From Halomarina pelagica (GTDB lineage: Archaea > Halobacteriota > Halobacteria > Halobacteriales > Haloarculaceae), in NCBI RefSeq assembly GCF_024228315.1, contig NZ_CP100454.1, forward strand, positions 3,286,001 through 3,350,000: 64,000 nt of DNA, in the 5' to 3' direction. Of this stretch, positions 2,080-27,792 are shown in pieces. The notes below the pieces were generated by a model, which was given only the letters and a program-made list of their open reading frames with translations, did no database searches and had not been told where the DNA came from. Made by a program: the position numbers and the translations under genes. Numbering within the stretch: the stretch's first letter is position 1; the number at the start of each line of letters is the position of its first letter.

Positions 2080-2742
2080 ATGAGCGTAATCGCGGACTGT
2101 ACCGTCCCGACCGAGTCGTTCGCGCTCCGAGGAGCACTCGAGGACAACCCGCAGACGGCACTGGAGGCCGAACGGGTGGCCACGCACAGCGCCGAGTGGG
2201 CCCTCCCATTCCTGTGGGCGAGCGGCGGTGATCGTGAGGCCTTCATCGCGGCGCTCCGAGACGATCCGACGGTCGAGGACGCCGCCGTCATCGAAGCAGT
2301 GGACGGCAGCGTGCTGTACAAGGTGCAGTGGTGCGATCGAGTCATCGAACTCGTGAACGAGATGATCGACCAGCACGCGGTCATCCTAGAGGCGGAGGCG
2401 CAGTCCCGACGCTGGCGATTCAAGCTCCGCTTCGCCGAGGAGGGACAGGTCGCCACGTTCCAGCGCCACTTCACCGAGCAGGGGCACGCGTTCGAGGTCA
2501 ACAGGCTCTACCGCCCGACGGAACCGCGCCGGCGGGAGTACGGCCTGACCGCCGAGCAGTACGAAACGTTGGTGACGGCGCTCGATCGGGGGTATTTCGA
2601 AATCCCGCGCACTGTCTCGACCGACGACCTCGCGGAGATCCTCGGTATCTCCTCGAACGCCGTCTCTCAGCGGCTCCGGCGTGCGTCCGCGAACCTCGTC
2701 CGAAACACGCTCCTGATCGGGCCCCGGGACCCCGGCACGTGA
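2080..2742 (+). CDS. HTH-10 (bacterio-opsin activator-type) transcriptional regulator
   Basis: 220 residues. The N-terminal ~150 residues resemble the sensor/GAF-like domain of haloarchaeal Bat-type regulators (pattern ...FALRGALEDNP, LPFLWASGGD, LYKVQWCDRV, LEAEAQSRRWRFKLRF). The C-terminal ~55 residues are an HTH-10 domain: LTAEQYETLVTALDRGYFEIPR, then DLAEILGISSNAVSQRLRRA. The ligand is unknown. It stands alone on the plus strand inside an otherwise minus-strand RNA-processing/proteasome group. It belongs to the same family as the regulators at 5570, 6947 and 7679 but is clearly divergent from them. Confidence 0.9.
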   Translation: MSVIADCTVPTESFALRGALEDNPQTALEAERVATHSAEWALPFLWASGGDREAFIAALRDDPTVEDAAVIEAVDGSVLYKVQWCDRVIELVNEMIDQHAVILEAEAQSRRWRFKLRFAEEGQVATFQRHFTEQGHAFEVNRLYRPTEPRRREYGLTAEQYETLVTALDRGYFEIPRTVSTDDLAEILGISSNAVSQRLRRASANLVRNTLLIGPRDPGT

Positions 2743-5440: not shown

Positions 5441-5528
5441 ATCCGGCGTCGGTCCGGCGTCGGTCCGGCGTCGATCCGGCGTCGATTCACTGTCGATTCA
5501 CCGTCGCCGTCGATTCACCGTCGATCGA
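5441..5528. repeat. Short tandem repeat, ~11-bp units
   Basis: Four successive 11-base units of the form (g/a)tccggcgtcg run from about 5441 to 5484, followed by units of the form attca(c)(t/c)gtcg to about 5528 ending in atcgatcgatcg. It sits between the start of the SH3-like gene and the end of the HTH-10 gene at 5570, so it is non-coding. Such an array can arise by slippage; its regulatory value is unknown. Confidence 0.8.
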
Positions 5529-5569
5529 TCGCGATTCGTCGTGGATCCATCGATGTGTCGCCGACTCCG

Positions 5570-6235
5570 TCAGTCGCCGTCGTCGCCGTGGCCCGTCATC
5601 AGCGCGTGTTTGATGAGGGTCTCGTGGCCCCGGCGGAGGCGTTCGGAGAGCGCCTGGTGGGAGATGCCGAGTTCGTGGGCGAGTTCGGCCGCGGTGACGT
5701 CGCGGGGGACCTTGTAGTAGCCCCGGTCGACCGCGGTGGTGAGCGTCTCCTGTTGCATCTTCGTCAGCCCAAGTTCGCTGTGACGCCCCTCGTCCAGCCG
5801 GTAGATCCGCGTGAACCGCAGGGCGAGACCGTTCTCCTCGCAGTACTCGTACGTCTGCGAGAGGGCGCTGTGTTCGGGAAATAGGACGCGAAAGCGCCAC
5901 ACGTCACCCTTTCCGACGGCGGCGAGGATCGTCGCGTCCTCCTCGACGAGCAGGTGCACGAGCGACTGGATGCGATCGATCCACTCCATCTGGTAGAGCT
6001 GTTCCTCCTCGCCGTCGACGAGCAGCCGGAGGTTCTCCACGCTGGGATCCGCGTCGAGCGTCGCCGTGAGCGCCTCGGAGTCCGCGCCGAGCGCCCAGAC
6101 GTACGGCATGACGCGGTCCATGTCGTGGGCGACGAGGCGCTCGATGTCGAACTCGACCTCCTCGAACGTCTCGAGCGTCTCTCGTAACGCGAATTCGTTC
6201 GCCGGTATCTCCACCTCCGCGACAGTACCCCCCAT
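5570..6235 (-). CDS. HTH-10 (Bat-type) transcriptional regulator
   Basis: 221 residues starting MGGTVAEVEIPANEFALRE. It has an N-terminal Bat-like sensor region (VMPYVWALGADSEALTATL, LYQMEWIDRIQSLVHLLVEEDATIL, DVWRFRVLFPEHSALSQTY) and a C-terminal HTH-10 domain (LGLTKMQQETLTTAVDRGYYKVPRD, then ELAHELGISHQALSERLRRGHETLIKHAL). The recognition helix HQALSERLRRG resembles those of the paralogs at 6947 and 7679. It is the last gene of a minus-strand cluster of regulators. Sensor ligand unknown. Confidence 0.9.
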   Translation of the reverse strand: MGGTVAEVEIPANEFALRETLETFEEVEFDIERLVAHDMDRVMPYVWALGADSEALTATLDADPSVENLRLLVDGEEEQLYQMEWIDRIQSLVHLLVEEDATILAAVGKGDVWRFRVLFPEHSALSQTYEYCEENGLALRFTRIYRLDEGRHSELGLTKMQQETLTTAVDRGYYKVPRDVTAAELAHELGISHQALSERLRRGHETLIKHALMTGHGDDGD

Positions 6236-6433: not shown

Positions 6434-6871
6434 CTACTTCTCCGGCTCGTCCGTCAGTTCGTCGGTCAGCGCCTCTATCTCGTCGAGCAACGATTCGACG
6501 GTCGGCCGGTCGGCGTACCTGATCCGTCCCCGACGGGGGTCGTACTCGAGGAGTCCGGCCTCGTCGAGTCGGGGGAGGATCGTGTGGTGGAGGCGGATCG
6601 CGAGGCGTCGTCGGTCCCTCTCCGGGTCGGTCTCGGGTTCGCGAGCGGCGTGCTCGTACAGCCGTTCGCAGAGGGCGTCGAGGGTGACGACTTCGTCCGA
6701 CGCGGCGCTCAGACGGGCGAGTACGCGGCGTCGGTTCGCGTCGGCGAGAACGTCGAGCAACTCGTCCCGGGGGACCCGGCTCGGGATCTCGGCCGTACCT
6801 CCGGTGATCGCCTCGCGGCGATCGGATTCACCAGGATTCACGTTCCCACGACCGACCGCCGGACCAAACAC
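6434..6871 (-). CDS. Winged-helix protein of the haloarchaeal DUF7344 type
   Basis: 145 residues. After a ~30-residue polar leader the sequence PRDELLDVLADANRRRVLARLSAAS...VTLDALCERL and RLAIRLHHTILPRLDEAGLLEYDPRRGRIRY is the standard small haloarchaeal winged-helix domain, with helix-turn-helix and wing ending in EYDPRRG. Such proteins are presumed DNA-binding regulators. The conserved core would also fit a start within the leader; the ATG at 6871 is the only in-frame ATG upstream of it. It lies between HTH-10 genes on the same strand. Confidence 0.8.
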   Translation of the reverse strand: MFGPAVGRGNVNPGESDRREAITGGTAEIPSRVPRDELLDVLADANRRRVLARLSAASDEVVTLDALCERLYEHAAREPETDPERDRRRLAIRLHHTILPRLDEAGLLEYDPRRGRIRYADRPTVESLLDEIEALTDELTDEPEK

Positions 6872-6946: not shown

Positions 6947-7603
6947 TCACCGACGATCCTCCCCCTGGAGGACGTGTTCGAGGATCGCCTTGTTACCCCG
7001 GCGGATGCGCTGGGAGAGCGCCTGCTGGGAGATGTCGAGTTCGTCCGCGAGATCCGAAAGCGTCGACTGACTGGGAGTGTCGAAGTATCCGCGTTCGAGC
7101 GCGAGGAGGAGCGCCCGTCGCTGTTCGGGCGTGACGTCGAGTGGATCGCTCTCGAGGATCGGATCGCTCAACGTGTAGACGCGGCCGAGGGAGTAGGAGA
7201 TGCCACCGTCGAGACAGGCGTTGTGGAACTCGGAGAGGTGTTCGTGCGTCGGGAAGATCAGCCGTAGGTCCCAGCTCTCGTTTCGGTTCTGCGCCTGGAG
7301 GACGACCGCGTCCGTGACGGTCAGCGCGTCGGTGAAGTCCCGCACCGTCTCGTTCCACTCGGCGGCGTAGAGGACGCGGTTGTCGAACCGCTCGAGCGCG
7401 GTGAGTTCGGTCACCTGTCCGCTCTCCTCGACGCGCCGCTCGAACGCCTCCAGGTCGCCGTTCTTCGCCCAGAAGAGCGGCAGTGAGCCGCTCCCCAGCG
7501 GAACGATCCGTTCGAACTCGACGGCGAGATCCGGCGCGTCGTTCAGAATCGAACCCAGCGGAAAGTAGGACGGTGAGAGGGAGATTTCGGCGATGACGGC
7601 CAT
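6947..7603 (-). CDS. HTH-10 (Bat-type) transcriptional regulator, tandem paralog A
   Basis: 218 residues starting MAVIAEISLSPSYFPLGSIL. Sensor region includes LPLFWAKNGDLEAFERRVE, VLYAAEWNETVRDFTDAL and WDLRLIFPTHEHLSEFHNACLDGG; the C-terminal HTH-10 domain is LDVTPEQRRALLLALERGYFDTP then LADELDISQQALSQRIRR. The last ~22 helix-turn-helix residues are identical to those of the next gene upstream (7679-8347), so both probably recognise the same DNA. A palindrome lies against its TATA box (7642-7657), suggesting auto- or cross-regulation. Confidence 0.92.
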   Translation of the reverse strand: MAVIAEISLSPSYFPLGSILNDAPDLAVEFERIVPLGSGSLPLFWAKNGDLEAFERRVEESGQVTELTALERFDNRVLYAAEWNETVRDFTDALTVTDAVVLQAQNRNESWDLRLIFPTHEHLSEFHNACLDGGISYSLGRVYTLSDPILESDPLDVTPEQRRALLLALERGYFDTPSQSTLSDLADELDISQQALSQRIRRGNKAILEHVLQGEDRR

Positions 7604-7641
7604 TGCGGCGAACCATCATTCGCCGCCAGGATCTGTCTCTG

Positions 7642-7670
7642 CCTTGTTCCAACAAGGTATATTTACGATT
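7642..7670 (-). promoter_or_regulatory. Promoter with palindromic operator beside the TATA box
   Basis: Read on the minus strand, a TATA-like TAAATATA (7653-7664 region) is followed by a perfect inverted repeat, 7-base arms CCTTGTT and AACAAGG with a 2-base spacer (7642-7657). The distance of the TATA element to the ATG at 7603 allows a start about 7632 and a short leader. The repeat lies between TATA and the inferred start, a position where a bound repressor would block polymerase. Binding by the HTH-10 paralogs is an inference. Confidence 0.6.
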
Positions 7671-7678
7671 GGACGGGG

Positions 7679-8347
7679 TCACTCGACCGATGCACTCGAA
7701 GCGCCCAGCAGGACGTGTTCGAGGATCGCCTTGTTACCCCGGCGGATGCGCTGGGAGAGCGCCTGCTGGGAGATGCCGAGTTCGTCCGCGAGCGAGGTGA
7801 GCGTCACCTCGCTCGGGGTGTCGAAGTACCCCTCTTCGAGCGCCAGCAAGAGGGCCTCCCGCTGTTCGTCGGTCAGGGAGACGCCGCCGCCCTCGGTTCC
7901 AGTATTGGACAGAGTGTAGACGCGACCGAGCGTGTACGACAGACCGATCTCGAGGCAGTGGTTGTGAAACTCCGAGAGCGTCTCGTGGGAGTGAAACACC
8001 AGGCGGAAGTGCCAGCTCTCGTCGTCGTGACCGTGCGCGCGCAGGATGAGCGCATCGGTGACCGCGAGCCCGTCGATGAACCCCTTCGCCTCGCCGCACC
8101 ACGTGACCGAGTACAGGGTGCGTCCGTCGGTCCGGACGAGACGCGTCAGCTCGCCCACGTCGTCACTGGTTCGAAGCCGCCGTTCGAACGCCTCCATGTC
8201 GCTCCCCCACGCCCAGAGGATCGGCATGGCGTCACCATCGGTCGGGATGATCCGTTCGAACTCGACGTGTACGTCCGAATCGGCAGTGAGGAGCGTACCC
8301 AGGGGAAAGCCGTCCGGCGGAAGGGCGACTTCGGCAATGACTGCCAT
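7679..8347 (-). CDS. HTH-10 (Bat-type) transcriptional regulator, tandem paralog B
   Basis: 222 residues starting MAVIAEVALPPDGFPLGTLL. It aligns along its whole length with paralog A: VEFERIIP, MPILWAWGSDMEAFERRLR, LYSVTWCGEAKGFIDGL, WHFRLVFHSHETLSEFHNHCLE, LGRVYTLSN, then the HTH-10 domain LTDEQREALLLALEEGYFDTP and LADELGISQQALSQRIRR. The sensor halves have diverged strongly while the DNA-binding ends are identical over about 66 bases of DNA. This fits two sensors feeding one regulon. It lies 75 bases upstream of paralog A. Confidence 0.92.
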   Translation of the reverse strand: MAVIAEVALPPDGFPLGTLLTADSDVHVEFERIIPTDGDAMPILWAWGSDMEAFERRLRTSDDVGELTRLVRTDGRTLYSVTWCGEAKGFIDGLAVTDALILRAHGHDDESWHFRLVFHSHETLSEFHNHCLEIGLSYTLGRVYTLSNTGTEGGGVSLTDEQREALLLALEEGYFDTPSEVTLTSLADELGISQQALSQRIRRGNKAILEHVLLGASSASVE

Positions 8348-23769: not shown

Positions 23770-26700
23770 ATGAGCCAGGCAACTCTCTCTGACCGGCCTT
23801 ACGTCAATTCGAATCTCTTCTCGGGTCACTATTTGGACGAGCGGGTATCGGAGCGAGACGAGTGGGACTGCGATACCGAAGCCGAGGAAGCGCTGGAAAA
23901 ACTCCAGTCGCTCTACGACCTTGAAGGGAGTCTGGTCGAGGGATACAAGGAAGACCCGCTTATCGACAACTGGATTGACGAAGTACTGGATATCCTCGGG
24001 TTCGGCACGCAAGTCGAGACAACGCTTCCCGGTGGTGGTGGGTTCGTTGACGTGCTACTCTTCGAGGACGATGTCACTCGACGCGATACCGCTGAAGTCT
24101 ATCTGAAGACCGAAAGCACAACGGACCTATTCGAGGGCGGTATCAGCATCGTCGAGGCGAAGCGGTGGGACGCCGACTTCACGCAACGATTCAGTGAACA
24201 GCGACCGTACCGGAACGCTTCGCATCAAATTAAGCACTATCTGGAGCGCACGTCTGAGAACATCCAATGGGGCGTCCTGACGAACGGACGTAAGTGGCGT
24301 CTGTACGGGACCAAGGATTACGAGACGCAGACCTACTACGAAGTTGACCTGCCGGAACTCCTCGAACAAGGTGGTCTTGATGCGTTCAAGTACTTCTACG
24401 TCTTCTTCCGACCGGCTGCCTTCCGCGACTCCGCTGGCACGACATTCCTCGATACGGTATGGGCCGAAAGTGAGACGGCAGCGCAGGAACTTGGTGAAGA
24501 CCTCCAAGACAACGTCTTCACGGCGTTGCGAGTTCTCGGACGAGGATTCGTCGAGACGAACGACTTCGATATTGACCCTGACGACGAGGACACCCTCAAC
24601 GAACTCAAAGATCAGTCGTTGGTGTTGCTGTACCGGTTGATGTTCTTGCTCTACGCCGAAGCACGAGGACTAATCCACCCCGAAGGTCAGAAGGCGAAAG
24701 ACGAATACGAGCAGAATTTCAGTCTCGATACCCTCCGACAGCAGATTCACGACGCAATCGGAGAAGTCGACGAGGGCTTTGAAGACGAGTTCAGTGAGTA
24801 CTCGACGGGGATGTGGAGCCGGCTTCAAGACCTATTCCGACTCATTGACGAGGGGGAAGAGTCGTTGGGTATTCCGCCGTACAATGGTGGCCTATTCAAC
24901 CCGGAAGAACACGCCTTTCTGTCCGAACATGAGGTGAGCAACCGCTATCTCGCGGAGGTCATCTACCGACTCTCAACGACGCCGAACGACGAGGGGCGCT
25001 TTGTTCTCGCCGACTACGCCGACCTCGATACCCGCCACCTCGGCAGCGTTTACGAAGGCCTCCTCGAACACCAGTTCCGAATCGCGCCCGAGCAGTATGC
25101 GGCGGTCGCAGAGGACGGTGGTCAAGTCTGGAAGCCAGCCACTGAGGTCAGTGTTGCCGAGGCCGTCGAGACGGTTCCTGAGGGCGGCCTGTACGTCGTA
25201 AACGACGAGGGCGAGCGTAAGGCTACGGGTGCCTACTACACACCGGATTACGTAGTGACGTATATCGTCGAGGAGACGGTCGGGCCGCTGATTGAGGAGA
25301 TACGCGAGGATCTCATTGACCAAGGCTTTGAGCCGGGCACGCAGGAATATATCGGTCCGTTCTTCCGACGCGTGACTGACCTACGAATTCTTGACCCCGC
25401 GATGGGAAGTGGTCACTTCCTGACGAAGACAACAGGCTACCTCTCCGAGCAGGTAATGGCGGAGGTCCGCGAGGCCGAAACCGAGTTCGGGGTGGCGTTC
25501 GACGAACAGCATATCCGGCGTGAAATTGCCAAGGAATGCATCTATGGCGTCGATTTGAACGGAATGGCCGTTGAACTGGCGAAGCTATCGATGTGGTTGG
25601 AGACGCTGGCCGCTGACCGTCCACTGGCGTTCCTTGACCATCACCTGATGCATGGTAACTCGCTCGTAGGGAGTGATGTCGTAGACATCCTCGGCGATGA
25701 CGACGAGAAAGCGGGCCAGACAGAGCTTTTTGATTACATGGATCAGGCCCGTCAGCAGGCCCTCAAACACGTGATGGAGCTGATGCAGGACTTGATTTCC
25801 ATTGACAACGAGACTCTTGACGACATTAAGGAGATGGAGCGGGTCTACGGGGAGATCCGCGATGACCCGCAGTACCAACACCTCCTCCATATGATAAATG
25901 TCCATACTGCAGAACAGTTTGGACTTGATGTCCCTAGCGGAGCTTACGAAACGATAGCAAAAGCACTTAAGAACGACGATTGGGAAACTGTTGAGGACGA
26001 GGATTGGTATCGCTCGGCGCAGGCGATAGCCGACGAAGAAGCTTTCTTCCATTGGGAACTGGAGTTCCCGAGCGTGTTCTACGATAAAAACGGCGAGCGA
26101 CGGAACGACGAAGGGTTCGACGCCGTGATCGGGAATCCGCCGTGGGTTGATATTAAGGGGCTTGAAAATCCCGACGTACTCTTTGACCTGTTCGAAACCA
26201 GTTTTAACAGAGTAAATATCTACTCAGCTTTCTGTGAGCGAGCTACAAATTTGATTCGAGTAAATGGGAAATTCGGGTATATAACTCCCAATTCCTACAT
26301 GACACAGAGTTCGTATCGACCACTACGCATGCATTTTATTGACAATTACGAGATTGAACGGCTTGTCCGTCTTCCAGATAGAGTATTTAGTAACGTTACG
26401 ATGGAAACCGCCATTATTGTGTCCACGAAGATGGAAAACCAAGAGATTCAGGACGACAGTTTGACTGCGATCATATACGATCGAGAGTCAACGGTTAGTC
26501 AGATTCCGGACTCTCATGCTGAAGTAAAAGATGTCAATCCGTCCTACTGGAACAGGGACGGTTTAATTTTCGATATATTTACTTCGAATGAAGATCGAAA
26601 AGTTCTAAATATGTTGGAGGAGTCACAATTCCGGATCGGAGATTTATTCGAAACCTCTCTCGGACTCACTCCGTACGATAAGCATCAAGGACACACCAAA

Positions 26701-27792
26701 GAGCAGATTGAAAATCGTGTCTTTCACGCAGATGAGAAAGAGACAGGGAATCACCACAAACTCACAAGCGGGTCTGGAATCGGACGATATCGACTATCGT
26801 GGGAAGGCGGCGAGTGGATTGAATACGGCGATTGGCTCGGTTCTGAGCGTGAAAAGAGGTTCTTCACCGAACCGAGATGTATTGTCCGGCAGATCGTTTC
26901 AACAGGTGGAAAATATGGCATTAATGCAACTTTCGCCGATGAGACGATGTTTCATACGCAGGTTGGATTCGTTCTCCTTCCGAAGGACGGAGACAAACAG
27001 AAAGCAAAGAATATCGTCGGACTGCTGAATTCCCGTCTTCTAACGTTCTACCATCGGAAACGATACTTGGACGAGAACAAGGATACCTTCCAAAAGATAC
27101 TCATCCAAGACGCGAAAGAGTTCCCCGTCCCAGAAGGATTCACTACAGACGAATTAACGAGTAAAGTAGAAAAAATAGAAGAGCTAATTGAGGAGCGAGA
27201 AAGACTCAACCTCAACCTCCTCGATTACCTCGGCAACTTTGACAGCGGTGAGCGACTACCAGATAATGGATTCTATCAGCCCGTGGCCGAGTCGGATTCC
27301 ATCCTCCACGAAACCGCGGAAGACAACGATGACCACCTGCGCATCCGCATCGGGGACGTGCGTGTGGTCCGCGAGGACGATGACACCGTGCTGGTGGAGG
27401 CGACGGCACGATACCGCCCCGACGAGGACGAGGACTTCGTCGAAACGGAGTGGAAACCGACGTTCCGGCTGACCAGTCTCTCTGAGACTGAGGCTGACCT
27501 CGTTGAGGCGTTTGTGCCCGTGGCGTCTGAGGAGGGCGGCGGATTTGCGGGCTTCCGAAAAAAGGCGACCAAGACGAACTCGCTCATTGACCGGTTGAAG
27601 GCTCTCACACTCCCGGACCCCGATGACGTTGCCGACGACCTCGCTCACTACCTGCACGCCGTCGAACGCGCCGAGAAACTCGACGAGAAAATCGAGAAAA
27701 CGGACAAGCTGATTGACGAAATCGTGTACGAACTCTACGGATTGACTGACGATGAGATCGAGGTCGTGGAGGAAGCGCTGGCCGACAACTGA
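23770..27792 (+). CDS. Type IIG restriction enzyme/DNA methyltransferase (Eco57I-like)
   Basis: 1340 residues. N-terminal PD-(D/E)xK-like nuclease: VDVLLF with Asp94 and the EAKRW motif with Glu129/Lys131, giving the D...ExK set. The methyltransferase core has TGAYYTPDYVV, motif I LDPAMGSGHFL (Asp542) and motif IV NPPW (Asn789-Trp792), an N6-adenine MTase signature. The C-terminal region after ~820 holds the target recognition domain (YDKHQGHTKEQIENRVFHAD) and a helical end. A single chain thus would cut and protect DNA, an innate phage defence. The region encoding residues ~800-1150 is markedly AT-richer than its surroundings, indicating transfer. It fills most of an island bounded by tRNA-Leu repeats. 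Confidence 0.9.
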   Translation: MSQATLSDRPYVNSNLFSGHYLDERVSERDEWDCDTEAEEALEKLQSLYDLEGSLVEGYKEDPLIDNWIDEVLDILGFGTQVETTLPGGGGFVDVLLFEDDVTRRDTAEVYLKTESTTDLFEGGISIVEAKRWDADFTQRFSEQRPYRNASHQIKHYLERTSENIQWGVLTNGRKWRLYGTKDYETQTYYEVDLPELLEQGGLDAFKYFYVFFRPAAFRDSAGTTFLDTVWAESETAAQELGEDLQDNVFTALRVLGRGFVETNDFDIDPDDEDTLNELKDQSLVLLYRLMFLLYAEARGLIHPEGQKAKDEYEQNFSLDTLRQQIHDAIGEVDEGFEDEFSEYSTGMWSRLQDLFRLIDEGEESLGIPPYNGGLFNPEEHAFLSEHEVSNRYLAEVIYRLSTTPNDEGRFVLADYADLDTRHLGSVYEGLLEHQFRIAPEQYAAVAEDGGQVWKPATEVSVAEAVETVPEGGLYVVNDEGERKATGAYYTPDYVVTYIVEETVGPLIEEIREDLIDQGFEPGTQEYIGPFFRRVTDLRILDPAMGSGHFLTKTTGYLSEQVMAEVREAETEFGVAFDEQHIRREIAKECIYGVDLNGMAVELAKLSMWLETLAADRPLAFLDHHLMHGNSLVGSDVVDILGDDDEKAGQTELFDYMDQARQQALKHVMELMQDLISIDNETLDDIKEMERVYGEIRDDPQYQHLLHMINVHTAEQFGLDVPSGAYETIAKALKNDDWETVEDEDWYRSAQAIADEEAFFHWELEFPSVFYDKNGERRNDEGFDAVIGNPPWVDIKGLENPDVLFDLFETSFNRVNIYSAFCERATNLIRVNGKFGYITPNSYMTQSSYRPLRMHFIDNYEIERLVRLPDRVFSNVTMETAIIVSTKMENQEIQDDSLTAIIYDRESTVSQIPDSHAEVKDVNPSYWNRDGLIFDIFTSNEDRKVLNMLEESQFRIGDLFETSLGLTPYDKHQGHTKEQIENRVFHADEKETGNHHKLTSGSGIGRYRLSWEGGEWIEYGDWLGSEREKRFFTEPRCIVRQIVSTGGKYGINATFADETMFHTQVGFVLLPKDGDKQKAKNIVGLLNSRLLTFYHRKRYLDENKDTFQKILIQDAKEFPVPEGFTTDELTSKVEKIEELIEERERLNLNLLDYLGNFDSGERLPDNGFYQPVAESDSILHETAEDNDDHLRIRIGDVRVVREDDDTVLVEATARYRPDEDEDFVETEWKPTFRLTSLSETEADLVEAFVPVASEEGGGFAGFRKKATKTNSLIDRLKALTLPDPDDVADDLAHYLHAVERAEKLDEKIEKTDKLIDEIVYELYGLTDDEIEVVEEALADN

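Follow-up and report, generated by a model that had tools for sequence, protein, structure and literature searches.

Gene conversion as the probable source of a shared recognition-helix sequence in two tandem HTH_10 regulators of Halomarina pelagica

Two neighbouring regulator genes of the haloarchaeon Halomarina pelagica, here called A and B, have drifted apart in their sensor-coding parts and share a stretch of 66 identical nucleotides that encodes the presumed recognition helix. We consider it about 85% probable that A and B were duplicated before the two species H. pelagica and Halomarina halobia separated, and that the recognition-helix end was converted after the split, most likely from A. 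According to this model, a tandem duplication would have given A and B, their sensor halves would have drifted apart, and gene conversion (non-reciprocal recombination) in the H. pelagica lineage would later have copied the recognition-helix end from A into its neighbour, the outcome being two regulators with differing sensors and one common DNA-reading helix. Protein-level conservation would have kept the helix-turn-helix (HTH) end the most similar stretch of A and B and hence the best substrate for recombination, which would be the main reason why conversion was confined to it. Both genes lie in the window, the 64,000-nucleotide stretch of contig NZ_CP100454.1 (positions 3,286,001 to 3,350,000) that was analysed here, and coordinates given without a locus prefix are counted from its first letter. 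The regulator genes considered in the window are the following:

6947-7603, minus strand: gene A, a predicted 218-aa one-component regulator with a BAT-like sensor and a C-terminal HTH_10 domain
7679-8347, minus strand: gene B, a 222-aa paralogue of A, directly 5' of A and in the same orientation
6434-6871, minus strand: a DUF7344 (wHTH-like) gene 3' of A in the conserved cluster (PF24035, E 2.4e-15), with synteny in H. halobia
5570-6235, minus strand: gene C, the third BAT and HTH_10 regulator of the cluster, 78% identical to its H. halobia orthologue
2080-2742, plus strand: gene D, a fourth BAT and HTH_10 gene

Genes B, A, the DUF7344 gene and C form, in this order from 8347 to 5570, a row of four regulator genes on the minus strand. 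The proteins encoded by A and B are 59% identical and are predicted to be HTH_10 one-component regulators that control transcription by binding DNA. Both passed the gathering score of 23.1 bits for HTH_10 (PF04967) with 54.3 bits for A (E 1.2e-14) and 60.8 bits for B (E 1.1e-16). For BAT (PF15915, cut-off 25.8 bits), A scored above the threshold (34.0 bits, E 3.1e-8) and B marginally below it (24.7 bits, E 2.3e-5), the two matches covering the same part. This order of a sensor/BAT part followed by HTH_10 is that of the Bat family, from which A and B differ in having no PAS or GAF domains; Bat itself, the bacterioopsin activator, switches on the bop gene (cited in PMC7824242). A sequence search against solved structures gave zero matches, and a fold search returned only partial, low-scoring matches, the best reasonable one being Ta1207 of Thermoplasma (TM 0.39), so no ligand is proposed for the sensor. 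The HTH of gene C is 40-47% identical to those of A and B, its longest exact match being 19 nt with B and 12 nt with A, and C has undergone no conversion with either. Elsewhere in the window, a 4-kb low-GC stretch at 23770-27792 (0.49-0.56 against about 0.69) codes for a 1340-aa protein which, judged by eye from its NPPW motif, resembles a BREX/type IIG-type DNA methyltransferase; this stretch looks like a recent acquisition.

The shared sequence is made up of the following segments:

6969-7034, minus strand: putatively converted tract in A, 66 nt equal to the tract in B, encoding residues 191-211 with the presumed recognition helix
7710-7775, minus strand: putatively converted tract in B, 66 nt identical to 6969-7034
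7036-7052, minus strand: extension of the identity in A, 17 nt past one mismatch, encoding the end of helix 2
7777-7793, minus strand: extension of the identity in B, 17 nt that match the extension in A

The original prediction, made from the letters of the window, of 66 identical bases and 17 more nearly so was correct letter for letter and in its coordinates: a single mismatch is followed by 17 matches, which makes 83/84 bases identical, and identity is lost abruptly at both edges. The same prediction had assigned the identical DNA to the end of the DNA-binding domain, and this applies to the recognition helix and the end of helix 2 but not to the domain as a whole. In the predicted structure of A (mean pLDDT 77, about 65-81 in the HTH region) helices span residues 159-170, 182-188 and 193-213, and the 66-nt tract would correspond to the last of these, presumed to be the recognition helix and its extension. 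The one mismatch lies immediately before the 66-nt tract in a codon for Asp in A and its H. halobia orthologue A4 and for Gly in B and its orthologue B4. As this codon has stayed paralogue-specific in both species, the 84-nt stretch may consist of two patches or may have been selectively interrupted.

Synonymous divergence along the two genes proved to be uneven. All 21 codons for residues 191-211 of A are identical in B, whereas outside the tract this is true of 62 of the 103 codons that encode the same residue in both. Synonymous sites are thus homogenised in the tract. Purifying selection on the protein sequence of the recognition helix could, together with codon bias, have kept the DNA identical without recombination, since the HTH belongs to the best-conserved regions of the family and the codons of this genome are biased. 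We find this very improbable, as 21/21 identical codons would arise with a probability of about 10^-6.4 if codons were drawn according to the usage of this genome. Control pairs of HTH_10 genes with 68-75% identical HTH residues had merely 30-33% identical codons; in the pair at G000:C4:109500-117500 (genes 1195-1947 and 5487-6170 of the locus), with 75% protein and 33% codon identity, the HTH is conserved without conversion. Protein conservation therefore does not produce DNA identity. Exact matches within the HTH were also compared over the 1430 pairs formed by the 55 HTH_10 genes of the H. pelagica genome, which holds 55 HTH_10 domains. The longest were 66 and 62 nt, in the tandem pairs A/B and X/Y (described below), both of them same-strand neighbours, and the remaining 1428 pairs stayed at or below 25 nt. 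When a third gene was sought in this genome as the source of the A/B tract, the best other match reached about 81-82%, and we therefore conclude that the genome holds no third-gene donor.

The duplication and the tract could be placed relative to speciation by comparison with the sister species, H. halobia PSR21, in which every gene of the cluster has an orthologue and gene order is kept. Protein identity is 74% between A and A4 and 72% between B and B4. A protein tree calculated with the recognition helix left out recovered the clades A+A4 (support 100) and B+B4 (support 97), and the A/B duplication is therefore older than the species split. Within the tract the relationship is reversed: A and B agree at 63/63 nucleotides, A and A4 at 56/63 and B and B4 at 53/63. 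Sites outside the tract supported the grouping AA4|BB4 over AB|A4B4 by 62 to 13, and those inside supported the latter by 5 to 0 (Fisher p = 3.6e-4; scan permutation p = 0.005). In the AU test, too, the orthologue tree was rejected for the tract (p = 0.014), as was the paralogue tree for the remainder of the genes (about 1e-50). Of the codons for the same residue in the tract, 14/19 are identical between A and A4 and 11/19 between B and B4, that is, 26-42% differ. At synonymous sites of the tract the orthologues have thus diverged, and the identity of A and B can be attributed neither to protein nor to codon constraint. With gene trees that flip exactly at the tract and synonymous divergence that is uneven, gene conversion, one of the two explanations offered by the original prediction, is well supported as the probable mechanism.

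The tandem layout and the high HTH identity might also be read as the mark of a recent tandem duplication followed by unusually fast divergence of the sensors. This is hardly credible, as both copies have orthologues in H. halobia, stand in the same order there and group with them, and outside the tract the genes have diverged strongly at synonymous sites (41/103 same-residue codons differ). In H. halobia the homogenisation of A4 and B4 is weak and at most an older or less pronounced one (15/20 same-residue codons identical in the tract against 64/101 elsewhere), and one event after the split in the lineage of the window is therefore sufficient. As for its direction, over residues 192-209 of A the tract matches A4 at 4/4 of the sites at which A4 and B4 differ, which suggests A as the most likely donor. 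Besides this weak homogenisation in H. halobia and the paralogue-specific Asp/Gly codon, two points count against the model for A/B: the quartet signal consists of five informative sites only, and conversion between chromosome copies in Haloferax involves far longer tracts, sites 600 bp apart nearly always being converted together (PMC8223754).

The same pattern occurs again in another tandem HTH_10 pair of this genome, which belongs to an unrelated family. A survey covered a selection of 101 neighbouring HTH_10 pairs, examined locus by locus, and exact matches of at least 40 nt were present in six: A/B, X/Y, X4/Y4 and one pair each in the genomes G007, G015 and G002. Three of these are placed as follows:

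G000:C1:1147725-1151915, tandem, same strand: pair X/Y of H. pelagica, PAS-GAF-BAT-HTH_10 architecture, about 590 aa, unrelated to A/B
G004:C1:2899500-2908500: pair X4/Y4, the H. halobia orthologues of X/Y, with homogenised HTH
G015:C1:485500-487600, minus strand, genes 472-1122 and 1190-1837 of the locus: tandem HTH_10 pair of another genus with two separate near-identical tracts

Homogenisation of X/Y extends across the entire HTH, in H. halobia as well as in H. pelagica. In H. pelagica 44/50 same-residue codons are identical in the HTH against 138/224 elsewhere, and in H. halobia the HTHs of X4 and Y4 agree at 177/177 aligned nucleotides, against 159/177 and 162/177 between orthologues, the remaining protein being just 41% identical. 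Sites inside the HTH favoured the paralogue over the orthologue grouping by 9:0, those outside by 21:258 (Fisher 4e-10; AU p = 8e-4), and the flip coincides with the edge of the HTH domain. At the X/Y locus (G000:C1:1144700-1152100) about 870 bases separate the genes, apparently with small ORFs. Short repeats can suffer mis-polishing in assemblies, and a collapsed or mis-polished repeat could in general give rise to such identities. There is next to no chance that the A/B tract arose as an artefact of this kind: a tract of 66 nt fits within a single sequencing read, the flanks of the two copies are distinct, a mismatch falls within the longer match, and the same phenomenon arises independently in H. 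halobia. One further candidate for conversion was rejected, namely the two identical HTH_10 copies of H. halobia at 33-37 kb and 2944-2949 kb, which are a single locus present at both ends of the contig. On this contig (C1) the stretch that begins at 33 kb is 99.94% identical to the final 3.5 kb, and the contig is apparently a circular chromosome whose overlapping ends remained in the assembly.

In the three other pairs conversion is putative and was called from exact identity. The tracts of the G015 pair measure 58 nt in the sensor and 41 nt in helix 1 of the HTH, and in the G007 pair a sensor tract of 50 nt accompanies one of 47 nt in the HTH. The genes of the G002 pair (G002:C4:138500-141500) lie on opposite strands, their HTHs being 50% identical overall, and share 44 nt, YFEVPRRATLAELA, which end before the recognition helix; this identity may be due to conversion between inverted copies or to chance.

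A candidate for a common DNA target of A and B was located in the promoter of A:

7642-7657, no strand assigned: inverted repeat CCTTGTT-NN-AACAAGG directly 3' of a TATA-like stretch, candidate operator

This segment reads CCTTGTTCCAACAAGG, and H. halobia has CCTTGTCCCAACAAGG in the matching place. The arms CCTTGT-N4-ACAAGG are kept at 12/12 positions, while spacer and flanks have diverged. In archaeal promoters an operator just downstream of the TATA box fits autorepression, and the placement of the repeat, judged by eye, suits autorepression. The promoter of B does not contain the repeat, and the upstream region of the DUF7344 gene carries a single ACAAGG half-site that is kept in both species. 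From its conservation and position, the repeat is a plausible candidate operator common to A and B, at which the two sensors might compete, as the original prediction had supposed. The pattern CCTTGTNNNAACAAGG with at most two mismatches was rarer than its reversed pattern in both genomes (18 vs 40 and 6 vs 15) and is therefore no genome-wide regulon motif; of the HTH_10 loci scanned for the repeat in other genomes, which extended to more distantly related ones, that of H. halobia alone carried it.

The original prediction had named selection for the same DNA target as the other explanation of the tract. Conversions restricted to the HTH might have been retained since both regulators need one operator, be it through competition or through heterodimers, and those reaching into the sensor might have been purged. 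In keeping with this, the tract coincides with the HTH or its recognition helix in each of two pairs unrelated to one another, and this in two species, both A/B and X/Y retain diverged sensors, and the inverted repeat in the promoter of A is conserved; Carson and Scherer have speculated about selection preserving binding domains (PMC2720389). The remaining pairs point the other way: the G015 tracts lie in the sensor and helix 1 and miss the recognition helix, the G007 pair too carries a sensor tract, and the 44 nt of the opposite-strand G002 pair exclude the recognition helix. Residual homology by itself, moreover, predicts a bias towards the HTH. Selection for a shared target is therefore not required, and we regard it as possible but rather unlikely to have set the limits of the tracts. 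The conversion half of the original prediction is well supported, and the selection half is weakened by tandem pairs whose tracts miss the recognition helix or sit in the sensor. The data are most simply read as short-tract conversion at any place where neighbouring genes remain similar enough, which is most often in the HTH, and selection for a single target may add to it. The wider proposal that domain-limited conversion is a selected haloarchaeal mechanism, by which tandem HTH_10 pairs keep one target as their sensors diverge and so bring new inputs to an old operator, is a little more doubtful still.

These findings bear on how large regulator families are rewired, such as that of the 55 HTH_10 domains in this genome. 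If a neighbour resets the DNA-reading part time and again while the sensors diverge, paralogue trees based on the HTH will mislead, and regulators with different inputs can retain one target. The pairs listed here offer material on which limits of tracts set by selection can be told from those set by remaining sequence similarity.

A and B display features of concerted evolution, namely a bounded similarity of paralogues within the species, a duplication before the split and homogenised synonymous sites. Our literature search, in which most subscription journals were outside coverage, found no report of gene conversion for archaeal or bacterial helix-turn-helix regulators, and none of domain-limited gene conversion in the HTH_10/Bat family. 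Precedents come from other systems. In the mammalian homeobox genes TPRX1 and TPRX2, repeated gene conversion blocked divergence of the DNA-binding domain (PMC8208926). They resemble A and B in that conversion between paralogous transcription factors has held this domain alike, but they are not directly adjacent, whereas the pairs described here are archaeal one-component tandem regulators with tracts of about 60-180 nt. The mammalian gene pairs BMP8A/B, DDX19A/B and TUBG1/2 show partial concerted evolution of segments, the concerted regions not matching known domains (PMC2720389). Homogenisation is likewise restricted to a segment there, and paralogues are more alike than orthologues; unlike in those genes, the segment matches the DNA-binding domain in two of our pairs. 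In haloarchaea of the genus Haloferax, very efficient gene conversion acts between copies of the chromosome (PMC8223754, PMC11276520). These belong to the same class of organisms and possess efficient machinery, but the conversion described in them is allelic with long tracts, whereas that proposed here acts between paralogues over short ones.
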